Of a stretch of 64,000 nucleotides of DNA, positions 9,104-52,775 are shown piece by piece. The stretch is from assembly GCF_000423725.1 (NCBI RefSeq), contig NZ_AUIN01000018.1, positions 1-64,000 on the forward strand, written 5' to 3'. The position numbers and the translations under genes are program-made. The notes under the pieces were generated by a model. That model worked only from the letters and a program-made list of their open reading frames with translations. It ran no database searches and had not been told where the DNA came from. Source of the stretch: Streptococcus devriesei DSM 19639 (GTDB taxonomy: Bacteria; Bacillota; Bacilli; Lactobacillales; Streptococcaceae). Each line of letters starts with the position of its first letter. Position 1 is the first letter of the stretch.

Positions 9104-9246
9104 GAAAAAAGGCTCCTTAAACTAAATTTGGAGCTGTTTAATCAAGATTTCTTGAAAACAGCGGATGCAATGATTCACCGCGCCTGAGGCTTCGTTGTGT
9201 GACGACATCCCATTCACACACACTTAACGCGAATCATTTACTCTGT
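9104..9246 (-). promoter_or_regulatory. Tetrahydrofolate (THF) riboswitch and expression platform
   Basis: Read on the minus strand, 9246-9158 closely matches the S. mutans folT THF riboswitch as I remember it: ATGATTCGCGTTAAGTG, then GGGATGTCGTCACACAACG, then GGTGAATCATTGCATCCGC. The ATGATTC/GAATCAT pairing and the GTGTG/CACAC arm are both visible. Downstream, CTGTTTTCAAGA/TCTTGATTAAACAG forms one hairpin and GCTCC/GGAGC another that would cover the folT SD (AAGGAG), so control is probably of translation; a short T run after GGAGCC leaves termination possible. An extended -10 (TGGTATAAT) lies at 9273-9278 on this strand. Confidence 0.93.
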
Positions 9247-9445
9247 GCAGGAGAAATATTTCCTACCCTGTGATTATACCATAAGTCCTTCTGCAAATAT
9301 AGTCCAAAAGCAGTGAAATATGCTATAATGATATGGATACTGGTCTGGTATCCGATGATAACAATAAGAGCAGATATGATTTCAAAAATGAGCAATGAAA
9401 GCCGGCTAAGAAATTGTACTGTTTCATCATAATAAGGAAAATAAA

Positions 9446-17390: not shown

Positions 17391-17450
17391 CAGTAAAGAT
17401 TTTAAATGAGAAATTTTCAGTTCATTTGCCCGTACTTTTTTTGCTATAAT

Positions 17451-17600
17451 AGAAGCGGTATAAAAACACATTGCAGTTGGTAGTCTGTAAGCATCGTGAG
17501 ATGTCAGTAACCTTCCCTCCAAGGTCGTCCCATACCATTTACAATATTATTAACTGAAAAGGAATCAACCTTTTTGGTTTCTTAGTTTGGAGGGACTGGC
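17451..17600 (+). promoter_or_regulatory. yjdF-type riboswitch leader with SD sequestration
   Basis: A roughly 150-base leader follows an extended -10 (TGCTATAAT, 17442-17450). GGTAT at about 17457 can pair with ATACC at about 17532 to close an aptamer-like fold. CCCTCCAA (17515-17522) is an exact complement of TTGGAGGG (17587-17594), which contains the SD of the next gene. Leaders of this gene family include the yjdF riboswitch, reported to respond to azaaromatic compounds. The assignment rests on the downstream gene and visible pairing, not on a covariance-model hit. Confidence 0.78.
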
Positions 17601-31245: not shown

Positions 31246-31441
31246 AGGACTTATTATAGCAAAAAAATAATGCCTTGTCTGTCGCTTCAATCTGTCACGG
31301 GTGTCGAAATTCTTGTCATACGCAATAGTTTTTCAGAAGTCTGACAAATAGTTTAACGATAAATCAAATGGCAGCTCTGGAATAATTCTTCTGTCAAAAA
31401 TGTTAAATTTTGATATAATGAAATCATTACTGTGTTATCAA

Positions 31442-31551
31442 AATTGAACACGGGCTAAAAGCGTCGAGAAAAAGACAGCCTGCCTTATGCGCAAGCGCAT
31501 GGCGTCAGCCTCCTATTTTCTTCTCGCTTTCTTCACGCCCTTTGTATCTTA
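31442..31551 (+). repeat. Structured repeat RA, copy a
   Basis: 110-bp element with fixed ends ATTGAACACGGGCT and ACGCCCTTTGTATCTTA. Inside, AGC..GAGAA pairs with TTCTC..GCT, then conserved AAAAAGA faces TCCTATTTT, and ATGCGC-AA-GCGCAT forms the tip. Stems differ from copies b and c, but each still pairs. Confidence 0.85.
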
Positions 31552-31554
31552 TGT

Positions 31555-31667
31555 AATTGAACACGGGCTAAAATCCTAGTAAAAAAGATAAACGTCCTTG
31601 TGTCTTAGCGGCACAGCGTCCGTTTCCTATTTTTATACGGATTTGAAACGCCCTTTGTATCTTAATT
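31555..31667 (+). repeat. Structured repeat RA, copy b (tandem with copy a)
   Basis: Same ends as copy a, starting three bases after it. Outer stem ATCC..GTA pairs with TAC..GGAT, the middle stem AAACG with CGTTT, and the tip TGTG with CACA; the AAAAAGATAA and CCTATTTTT blocks are kept. It ends just before the plsC SD, so it may form part of that gene's leader. Confidence 0.85.
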
Positions 31668-31682
31668 AAAGGAGAATTTTCA

Positions 31683-32435
31683 GTGCTTTACACGTATCTG
31701 CGCTCTTTGCTGGTCTTTTTAATTTGGGCAGCTAATGGCAACATTCATTATCATCATCGCAATAAGCTCCTGCCTCAAGATGAAAATTATGTTTTAGTGG
31801 CGCCTCACCGCACACTGTGGGATCCGATTTTTATAGCTTTTGCAGCTCGTCCCAAGCAATTTATTTTCATGGCTAAAAAGGAACTCTTTGGCAATCGTGC
31901 TTTTGGCTGGTGGATTCGAATGTGCGGAGCCTTTCCTATTGATCGGGAAAATCCGGGAACGGAAGCTATTCGCTATCCTGTGAAAATGCTTAGAAAGAGT
32001 GATCGTTCTCTTATTATGTTTCCAAGCGGCAGCCGCCATTCTTCTGATGTTAAGGGCGGCGCTGCAGTCATTGCTAAAACCAGTAAGGTTAAAATCATGC
32101 CGGCAGCTTATGCCGGGCCCACTTCAATTAAAGGGCTGCTTAAGCACGACAGGATTGATGTAGCTTTTGGCAACCCTATTGATATTTCGGATATTAAGCG
32201 GATGAATGACGAAGGAATTGAGACGGTTTCACGTCGCATTGAGAAGGAATTTGCTCAGATAGATGCAGAAACGGCAACCTTTAAGGATGACAGCCGTCCG
32301 AGCTGGTGGAGCCTGATTTACCGCATACCTGCTATGCTTTTGGTGATTGTGATATTGGGCTTAACCTACCTGTTTTCTTGGTTTGCCAGCTTTGTCTGGA
32401 ATCCGGAAAAACATCGGGAAAAAAATCTGAAATAA
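31683..32435 (+). CDS. plsC: 1-acylglycerol-3-phosphate O-acyltransferase
   Basis: Makes phosphatidic acid at the membrane. The 250-residue protein has an N-terminal hydrophobic segment, the HX4D motif (HRTLWDP at about 42), FPSGSRHSS (about 114) and a C-terminal membrane span. The start is GTG 31683 behind AAAGGAG. Two structured repeats fill the space upstream. Confidence 0.93.
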   Translation: MLYTYLRSLLVFLIWAANGNIHYHHRNKLLPQDENYVLVAPHRTLWDPIFIAFAARPKQFIFMAKKELFGNRAFGWWIRMCGAFPIDRENPGTEAIRYPVKMLRKSDRSLIMFPSGSRHSSDVKGGAAVIAKTSKVKIMPAAYAGPTSIKGLLKHDRIDVAFGNPIDISDIKRMNDEGIETVSRRIEKEFAQIDAETATFKDDSRPSWWSLIYRIPAMLLVIVILGLTYLFSWFASFVWNPEKHREKNLK

Positions 32436-46205: not shown

Positions 46206-46613
46206 CAGACTGAAGAAAAAGTCTATTTTCTCAAAAAGTAATATTTTATTATGATACTTTCCTTAAGTAGCACGGACGGTAGCGACTTCCTTCGGAATTC
46301 CATACCTAAGTTCAAGATACAAAGGGCGTCTGCGGATAAAGGCAAAATAGGGAGTTCGACGCGGAATCGTTAAGATTCTAGGCGGACTTATCTTTTTGCC
46401 ACAATCCGCAGCCCGTGTTCAATTAAGATTTTGAGTCTAGGTCTCAAAATCTCCGAGAGGCAGAAACAGTGAGTTTCTGCCTCTTTTGCTACATCGGAAA
46501 GTATCAGGTTAGTTTTTGATAGATTCTATATCATTTTACAAAAATGAAAAGTGATACTATTCTATGATAAAATTTGAGAGAAAATTTAGTTTTGGGAGTT
46601 TGTCTACAAACTG
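46206..46613. mobile_element. MITE-like repeat R1, copy 2, interrupted by an RA element
   Basis: Matches copy 1 along its length. Its closing stem is GATACTTTCC/GGAAAGTATC, where copy 1 has GATACCTTCC/GGAAGGTATC, a compensated change. An RA repeat (46311-46424) interrupts it next to the AGATTTTGAG arm. It is flanked by two versions of one terminator hairpin: GACCAAGgcTGCTgtCTTGG to the left (46182-46201) and GACCAAGacAGCAgtCTTGG to the right (46615-46634), the latter followed by T residues. Confidence 0.8.
46311..46424 (-). repeat. Structured repeat RA, copy c (nested in R1)
   Basis: On the minus strand the ends read ATTGAACACGGGCT and GACGCCCTTTGTATCTT. The outer stem is TGCGGAT/ATCCGCA, the next GGC/GCC, then AAAAAGATAA facing CCTATTTT, and the tip GAATC/GATTC. 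Stem sequences are unlike those at 31.4 kb while loops and ends are shared. Confidence 0.85.
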
Positions 46614-51699: not shown

Positions 51700-52670
51700 A
51701 GATTTTAGTTGTCGGTTTAGGCGTTATCGGGGCAACTTACGGTTATTTATTTGAAAAGGCAGGTCATCAGGTTGAGCACTATATTCGTGACAGCAGCAGT
51801 CGAACAAAGCTTGCTGTTCTGGACGTAGACCTCTTAGACGGCAGAAAAAGTAAGACAGGCTTACATGTGCAGGATCTTTACCATGTCCAAAAACAAAGTC
51901 AAAGAGCCTATGATTTTATTTTTGTCAGTCTCCCTGAAGGAAAGATTAGGGAAGCTATCGATTACCTGCAGGAAAATCAGATTTCCGGTAAGATTTTGCT
52001 GGCGTGTGGGATTTGGCAGGATAGGCATTCCTTAGATGAGCTGATGAAAGGACGTGACTATATTCTGGGCTATCCCGTAGCTGGGGGACGAATTTCTGAC
52101 AAGCAGCTGACTGCCTGTGTCTTTGATCATTTTATGCTGGAAGAAAAGGGCAAAGCGAGGATTTCCAACTATACGGATTTAGAAAAACTCTTTTCCAGCT
52201 GTCAGATCCAGCTGGAAAAGCCTTACGATATGCTGGAGTGGATTTGGCTGCACATGGCCATTAATGCCGGTGTTATCTCCACCATAGCTGCTCATGCCGA
52301 TCTTAAGAATCCCAGTCAAGCAGCTGAAAATATGATTAGCTCAACTCAGTCGCTTTCTCAAGCTGTCAGAGCTATTCGTGAAACTGCTAAAATTGTAAAG
52401 AGCAGAGGGGTAAATTTGAAGTACTATCGGAACGAATTGCTGCCCTACCGACTGCCAGTCTGGCTTTCTGCACCGCTTATGAAACGCATGTTTGCTAAAA
52501 ATATTCTGAGCCGCACGATTATAACCCTGCATAACAATCTGCCCGACTTGTTTTTTGTATGTCAATGCCTCTATGATCTCGGCAAAAAGAAGCAGGTAGC
52601 GGCACCGACCTTTTATAAAACTTATAAAGAAGCTTTGCAAAAGGTGAGCGGCAATAAAATCGAATTTTGA
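51696..52670 (+). CDS. ApbA/PanE-like 2-dehydropantoate reductase family protein
   Basis: A 324-residue protein with an N-terminal NADP-binding fold (ILVVGLGVIGATYGYLFEKA) and a C-terminal helical domain. It belongs to the ketopantoate reductase superfamily, but the usual KxxxN and substrate motifs are weak, so the substrate may differ. Its ATG overlaps the CPBP stop. Confidence 0.82.
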   Translation: MKILVVGLGVIGATYGYLFEKAGHQVEHYIRDSSSRTKLAVLDVDLLDGRKSKTGLHVQDLYHVQKQSQRAYDFIFVSLPEGKIREAIDYLQENQISGKILLACGIWQDRHSLDELMKGRDYILGYPVAGGRISDKQLTACVFDHFMLEEKGKARISNYTDLEKLFSSCQIQLEKPYDMLEWIWLHMAINAGVISTIAAHADLKNPSQAAENMISSTQSLSQAVRAIRETAKIVKSRGVNLKYYRNELLPYRLPVWLSAPLMKRMFAKNILSRTIITLHNNLPDLFFVCQCLYDLGKKKQVAAPTFYKTYKEALQKVSGNKIEF

Positions 52671-52671
52671 G

Positions 52672-52701
52672 AGCTGGTTAATACGTTAATCAGCTTTTTT
52701 A
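52672..52701 (+). terminator. Terminator of the LytTR operon
   Basis: Stem AGCTGgTTAA / TTAAtCAGCT followed by six T. Confidence 0.85.
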
Positions 52702-52744
52702 TTGATGCTGACAGCTGTCGGGCAGCAAGGTTTATAAAATGGAA

Positions 52745-52775
52745 AAAGGAGCTGGGTTCAGCTCCTTTTCGTATA
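52745..52775 (+). promoter_or_regulatory. Hairpin and candidate com-box before coiA
   Basis: Hairpin AAGGAGCT/AGCTCCTTTT (52746-52769) is followed at once by TTCGTATA (52768-52775), six of eight bases of the ComX box TACGAATA, 20 bases before the coiA start. The same order (terminator-like hairpin, T run, box) occurs before comEA. Confidence 0.6.

Follow-up and report, generated by a model that had tools for sequence, protein, structure and literature searches.

A covarying hairpin repeat at gene starts in Streptococcus: a candidate mobile DNA hairpin

The plsC locus and the anatomy of the repeat

The window, a stretch of 64,000 nucleotides from Streptococcus devriesei DSM 19639 (contig NZ_AUIN01000018.1, positions 1 to 64,000 of the forward strand), carries two copies of a structured repeat in front of an acyltransferase gene and a third copy on the opposite strand. 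An earlier note on this DNA had described three such copies; all are present, and their boundaries, as set by a covariance model, lie within four bases of those first proposed. The fixed ends, the facing blocks AAAAAGA and CCTATTTT, the GCGTC motif and the stem and tip pairs described there were likewise all found. The features of the window are as follows.

9157 to 9247, minus strand: THF riboswitch, above the Rfam cut-off
17450 to 17548, plus strand: azaaromatic (yjdF) riboswitch, above the Rfam cut-off
31414 to 31419, plus strand: -10-like TATAAT, recognised by eye, upstream of plsC
31442 to 31550, plus strand: element copy 1, stem subtype AAAAGCGTCGAG, left end AATTGAACA, right end GTATCTT
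31555 to 31663, plus strand: element copy 2, stem subtype AAAATCCTAGTA, head-to-tail with copy 1 across the 4-nt linker ATGT
31668 to 31674, plus strand: Shine-Dalgarno (SD) sequence AAAGGAG of plsC, starting 5 nt past the right end of copy 2 (placement class A, defined below)
31683 to 32435, plus strand: plsC-like acyltransferase gene with a GTG start (PF01553, Acyltransferase), 3' of the tandem pair
46253 to 46505, minus strand: composite multi-hairpin repeat with ends GATACTTTCC..GGAAAGTATC, a separate repeat family that carries copy 3
46314 to 46424, minus strand: element copy 3, stem subtype GCGGATTGTGGC, within the composite repeat

The placement of the tandem pair before plsC is borne out, the next open reading frame (31683, GTG) being a Pfam Acyltransferase, a match from which it is taken to be plsC. 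As both copies lie between the -10-like TATAAT and the SD, they presumably form part of the plsC 5' UTR. Among the plsC loci of 25 Streptococcus genomes (about 3.7 kb each), the covariance model matched solely in the window genome, and the loci of the 24 others gave no element match; the site thus appears to have been filled fairly recently. A further locus beyond these 25 (L140) has one element copy before the same gene.

The element is a structured repeat of about 105-111 bp that folds into a single rod of five helices, its reference structure being drawn from one copy (L066). The 5' half reads 5'-AATTGAACACGGGCT, helix 2, TGTG, AAAAAGATA, helix 4, TCCTAG and the tip hairpin, which is followed in the 3' half by TTCGTC, helix 4', TCCTATTTT, CTTTG, helix 2' and ACGCCCTTTGTATCTT-3'. 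Three internal loops are conserved, a 4x4 loop AGAT/CCTA, CCTAG/CGTC and TGTG/CTTT, as is a single bulged A near the outer end, where the ends pair as GAACA/TGTATC. Copy 1 follows this plan, with P1 formed by GAACA/TGTATC around one bulged A, then GGGC/GCCC and a 4x4 loop AGAC/CCTA, AGAC standing where the majority of copies have AGAT. The claim that the stems pair in each copy held for the rod as a whole, which is the same in all three, and is weaker for the helix next to the tip of copy 1 (AGCC..AGCC), which is poorly paired; sister copies such as L010 pair there (AGCCT/AGGCT). On their own strands, copies 1, 2 and 3 fold with z values of -1.83, -3.13 and -3.52, and on the opposite strands with -2.63, -2.79 and -6.30, the opposite strand being better by z in two of the three.

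In six elements of the same genome (L005, L006, L011, L026, L043 and L044), the sequence breaks off at GCCCTT and a long module of several hairpins follows, running from CGACACTTCG.. to ..CTCTGCCGTATCTT and finishing with the same GTATCTT; this is apparently a long form of the element. The composite repeat that holds copy 3 occurs at five other loci of this genome (L030, L035, L036, L038 and the diverged L200), all of which have a GACGATTGCC..GGCAATC hairpin module that the window copy lacks, and other streptococci carry versions with changed, still complementary arms. Within it, positions 46278-46307 (minus strand) show a weak Rfam match, 22.3 bits at a cut-off of 72, to SSRC8_2, a small RNA of Streptococcus pyogenes, part of which may derive from the composite repeat.

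Pairing in the stems

The central claim of the earlier note, that something keeps these stems paired, is strongly supported. In a structure-free alignment of 56 diverse copies (A1), 90.3% of cells are paired, against 71.8% after shuffling and 36-56% when slid, and 320 cells are double-changed against 92 in shuffles. A second, model-aligned set (A2), which leans towards the structure and comprises the best 150 of 184 matches, from 100 of 114 named loci, gives 95.5% paired cells against 72.4% and 1061 double-changed cells against 274. For both A1 and A2 none of 500 shuffles matched the observed covariation score or the observed number of double-changed cells. The ends themselves covary, GAACT occurring with AGTATC, GAACC with GGTATC and GAGC with GCATC, and in some copies GGGC/GCCC is swapped to GCCC/GGGC.

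An RNA fold under selection should tolerate G-U pairs far above A-C mismatches on its own strand. Across 56 non-redundant copies, there are 1616 Watson-Crick, 16 G-U and 28 A-C cells, and once a single boundary pair rich in A-C is excluded (columns 16/212 of A2), 16 G-U stand against 17 A-C. G-U pairs thus make up about 1% of cells and are no commoner than A-C. The counts of G-U and A-C are 16 and 31 in sense copies, 5 and 15 in antisense copies, and 9 and 11 in dnaJ-proximal copies, the last being 41 rows picked by coordinates. When predicted structures were counted in a single pipeline, SRP RNA (30 of 60 genomes, 17 sequences after redundancy removal) gave 294 Watson-Crick, 56 G-U and 7 A-C, whereas the elements gave 1222, 31 and 19 on the plus strand, with one dubious predicted pair accounting for 15 of these G-U, and 1218, 33 and 16 on the minus strand. 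A tRNA control gave 420 Watson-Crick and 42 G-U pairs in 21 tRNAs by a counting method that cannot show A-C, so SRP RNA is the control to trust. Neither strand is favoured by pairing (31 G-U versus 19 A-C on plus, 33 versus 16 on minus) or by single-copy folds. With G-U scarce and no strand preferred, the pairing pattern suggests that what is constrained is a hairpin of DNA, not a fold of RNA.

These results bear on the candidates that had been offered for the repeat. A small RNA or a ligand- or protein-bound leader is disfavoured by the scarcity of G-U, the lack of a favoured strand and the unrelatedness of the downstream genes tested, and a leader of the riboswitch or T-box type is rejected for its lack of a G-U preference together with the mixed genes downstream. 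A substrate of a hairpin-acting enzyme fits best among those suggestions. In Rfam, positions 31400-31720 gave no match up to E=1, copy 3 gave no element match up to E=1, and a scan of the whole window at gathering thresholds gave no match on the elements.

Distribution and placement at gene boundaries

A blastn search of the same genome with copy 1 returned 24 matches including itself, of which 11 besides the query share at least 91% identity with it, and the covariance model found at least 61 (150 of 1269 candidates scored), numbers in one genome that are beyond chance. Two wider searches extend this to the genus: a pattern made from the ends matched at least 114 stretches, of which the 80 with listed titles are all Streptococcus, and the covariance model, scoring at most 32 candidates per genome, had matches in 116 of 118 Streptococcus genomes. 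Weaker matches in other genera appeared in a family-level scan (29 of 59 genomes, 14 of these Streptococcus) and in an order-level scan (55 of 198 genomes, 27 of these Streptococcus), and six genomes from other Lactobacillales genera have 10-35 matches each. At the 23 of 30 loci from these six genomes that were inspected, the stems differ and the plan is kept, with AGAT opposite CCTA, or a close variant, in an A-rich helix; the outer GA..ATC end is the same in most, and in six the right end lies immediately before an AGGAG-type SD.

Near-identical subtypes are dispersed to unrelated sites, and head-to-tail arrays occur, some of which mix different subtypes. Arrays of three to five units with linkers of 2-4 nt were seen at L138 (4618-5219), L125 (4760-5087) and contig 1 of G178 (52155-52755). 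The ends-based pattern also matched 10 viral contigs. These (L159-L168) each carry one element with near-identical flanks, before an SD and an open reading frame, which in L167, the sole phage contig tested, is a tail tape measure gene.

Placement was scored on 205 copies, namely 55 of the 61 in the window genome, the six others being partial or weak matches, and the best 150 of 184 from 100 of 114 loci. This yielded 135 non-redundant right ends with no further unit after them and 149 left ends; SD calls are motif tests made for the present analysis. Of the right ends, 36 lie just before an SD (class A), 25 just before a start codon with no intervening SD (class B) and 20 beside the stop codon of an opposite-strand open reading frame (class C), with 54 elsewhere. 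A start signal or stop codon is therefore found at 81 of 135 right ends versus 6 of 149 left ends (6 class C, 143 elsewhere). Intergenic positions of the same loci give a background of 2.5% for A, 3.2% for B and 4.2% for C, together about 10%, and, since orthologous sites were counted repeatedly, the boundary counts are not independent events. In class B the SD tends to be on the other side: of 34 such copies, 25 have an SD-like motif no more than 32 nt from the left end, versus 3 of 168 others, counted before deduplication. Genes starting 4-5 nt past a right end and confirmed by Pfam encode a PNP/UDP phosphorylase, HisA, HisE, AlaS, CarB, HisS and a methyltransferase, and the downstream genes among those tested are unrelated to one another. 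Such a right-end bias would follow from adjacent deletions on one side that halt at essential sequence, and a target preference would equally produce it. Some right ends scored as elsewhere adjoin what by eye appear to be the 3' ends of tRNA genes; at L028, L031, L098 and L202 these appear to be antisense tRNA genes, a further boundary class.

One gene with an element between SD and start codon is dnaJ. The set comprises 50 of the 59 genomes searched, made up of the 30 best-scoring loci and 20 picked from the rest; having been chosen largely by score, it leans towards genomes near the query. A start codon was recognised in all of the 50 loci except one, and in 40 of these 49 streptococcal loci, kinship ignored, the element ends 2-5 nt before the ATG. 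A GAAAGG-type SD stands 5' of the element in 37 of the 40, either directly adjacent or 11-18 nt off. The remaining nine loci have no model match, and in two of them (L275 and L276) a right end resembling TATATCTT is present. At this same spot the stem subtype varies between genomes, and the window genome's own dnaJ (L284) has no element. A coding role, or an N-terminal extension of DnaJ through the element, was rejected, as in none of the 40 loci does an open frame reach from the SD to the ATG, and the frames differ.

With the hairpin closed, the spacing between SD and AUG at dnaJ is 8 nt in 17 of 37 loci, 10 nt in one and 19-28 nt in 19. The same rule applied to six element-free dnaJ loci, drawn from seven clean ones with L256 left out, gives 8, 8, 8, 2, 7 and 8 nt, exactly 8 in four of the six. 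Simple bridging fails to explain the 20 of 37 loci whose folded spacing is 10-28 nt. Most loci of the 19-28 nt group have flanks containing GTTC that could pair with the element's left end, and a switch through such pairing is a conjecture. At six loci (L242, L243, L250, L260, L267 and L270), apparent remnants of older units lie upstream of dnaJ, consisting of an SD and only the first 15-25 nt of the element (AAAGGAAC..GTGTTC..GAACAC..TTCC); they could form an SD-sequestering hairpin.

Known repeats, mobility and competing explanations

The BOX elements of Streptococcus pneumoniae and the BOX-type repeats of S. suis are short, modular, intergenic repeats with folded ends that are regarded as parasitic, and those of S. 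suis include modules averaging 115 and 133 nt (PMC3049150). By that description, the present element is a streptococcal repeat of the same general kind. It differs in sequence from BOX and is found in 116 of 118 Streptococcus genomes, whereas other streptococci are reported to have almost none of the pneumococcal repeats, S. suis carrying elements related to BOX (PMC3049150). BOX membership was rejected, as 10 BOX-like places in the loci examined, found by motif, include none that overlaps an element match. RUP, at about 107 bp with folded ends that pair together, is similar in length and end-to-end pairing; it is narrower in range, RUP and SPRITE being reportedly almost confined to pneumococcus and S. 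mitis, and both are set apart by this published description (PMC3049150). REP elements and their RAYT (Y1) systems are palindromic DNA repeats with conserved unpaired tags (PMC3733652); REPs are 20-40 bp, whereas the element is a multi-loop rod of 105-111 bp in a genome without a Y1 transposase. The MRSC-65-2 type of mobile or repeat candidate has an abundant covarying stem with dozens of copies per genome and possibly acts as DNA, and differs (PMC11109978) in its conserved motif (a UYCCGG repeat) and its spread over wide phyla.

The nearest possible prior record is 'sanguinis-hairpin', which like 'ScRE' is tabulated as a Streptococcus candidate motif with RNA status '?' and no Rfam accession (Weinberg et al. 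2010, PMC2864571). So far as a table row shows, the element may be identical to either of these, and we take it as a variant of the streptococcal structured-repeat kind. In the main texts of the open-licence papers searched, no description was found of the element, of its DNA-type covariation or of its splitting of ribosome-binding sites.

We consider it reasonably probable that the element is a MITE-like mobile DNA hairpin, very old and non-autonomous, that can be tolerated in ribosome-binding sites on account of its fold. It has the features of a MITE in the broad sense, being short and non-coding, with folded ends and dispersed near-identical copies at unrelated sites. Movement is suggested by these dispersed subtypes and by the gain at plsC. 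A host or phage recombinase would recognise the folded single DNA strand through its loops and bulge; only copies that still fold would keep moving, and their pairs would be Watson-Crick because the substrate is DNA. In copies whose right end points at a gene start, the hairpin would also form in the transcript, and in those that separate the SD from the start codon its closure would loop the element out and return the spacing to normal. On this proposal, insertion into the initiation regions of dnaJ, alaS, hisS, carB, hisA and hisE would be tolerated and could become fixed. A broader version, which we put forward tentatively and doubt more than we believe, has a selfish DNA hairpin, spread through the order and specialised for regions of translation initiation, the DNA fold serving as the substrate for movement and the mRNA fold restoring SD-AUG spacing, which would hide the element from the ribosome and allow it, throughout Lactobacillales, to invade and be replaced repeatedly where ribosomes bind the mRNAs of essential genes.

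A Y1/RAYT mobiliser was rejected, as PF01797 has no match in the window genome, and the mobiliser may reside in another host or in a phage. Autonomous copies were sought, roughly, as left and right halves lying apart, and nothing convincing emerged; the search returned 39 crude pairs, and those checked, among 20 listed, are complete elements missed by the mask. At 107 isolated copies, there is a small excess of 6-8 nt matches and no fixed register above shuffled pairs for a target-site duplication, and a DDE-type MITE, for which a fixed-length duplication would be expected, was rejected accordingly.

An unlikely alternative is that the transcribed hairpin is a host-useful RNA leader that regulates or stabilises the downstream gene, whether as a 5' stem protecting the mRNA, an attenuator or a protein-binding site, with spread being secondary. 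The sense orientation before an SD or ATG at 61 of 135 right ends, the retention in 40 of the 49 streptococcal dnaJ loci and the ability of dnaJ 5' flanks to pair with the element's left end (GTGTTC/GAACAC) are all as such a leader would have them, and long maintenance at dnaJ would also suit a useful host function. However, G-U is nearly absent without a strand preference, the downstream genes tested are unrelated, 20 of 135 right ends belong to antisense copies against stop codons, and the same dnaJ site holds different subtypes in different genomes.

Selection could instead have favoured the hairpin as a folded spacer that separates SD from AUG, ribosome-binding-site function rather than mobility maintaining it, which we rate as rather improbable. 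Class B placement does have the SD on the 5' side, 17 of 37 dnaJ loci have a folded spacing of exactly 8 nt, and there is a precedent in T4 genes 25 and 38, where a structure between SD and AUG cuts the effective spacing from 22 to 5 and from 27 to 11 nt (PMC3014915). The T4 cases are small structures at single genes, whereas the element is a dispersed repeat of about 105 nt at several genes whose effect is predicted. Against a spacer device, only 25 of 135 right ends are class B, antisense copies are paired as well as sense copies, G-U, which mRNA would tolerate, is rare in dnaJ-proximal copies too, and 20 of 37 dnaJ loci have no normal folded spacing. Quasi-palindrome template switching, in which arm is copied onto arm, would account for the scarce G-U and A-C intermediates without selection, and such mutational arm correction alone could mimic part of the Watson-Crick covariation, but as an origin for the pattern it is very improbable, since correction should have erased the unpaired AGAT/CCTA loops and bulged A, which are conserved also in most of the other-genera copies inspected.

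If the reading as a mobile DNA hairpin is right, the element would be a clean example of covariation that establishes a structure which is yet not RNA, and the absence from Rfam of a repeat in nearly every Streptococcus genome searched would be explained by its being a structure of DNA. The mobilising recombinase would then be a concrete target to find. The streptococci would also hold a natural, repeated experiment in which a hairpin of about 105 nt is placed between the SD and start codon of housekeeping genes, making it a directly testable question whether the 30S subunit can bridge a large folded insert.
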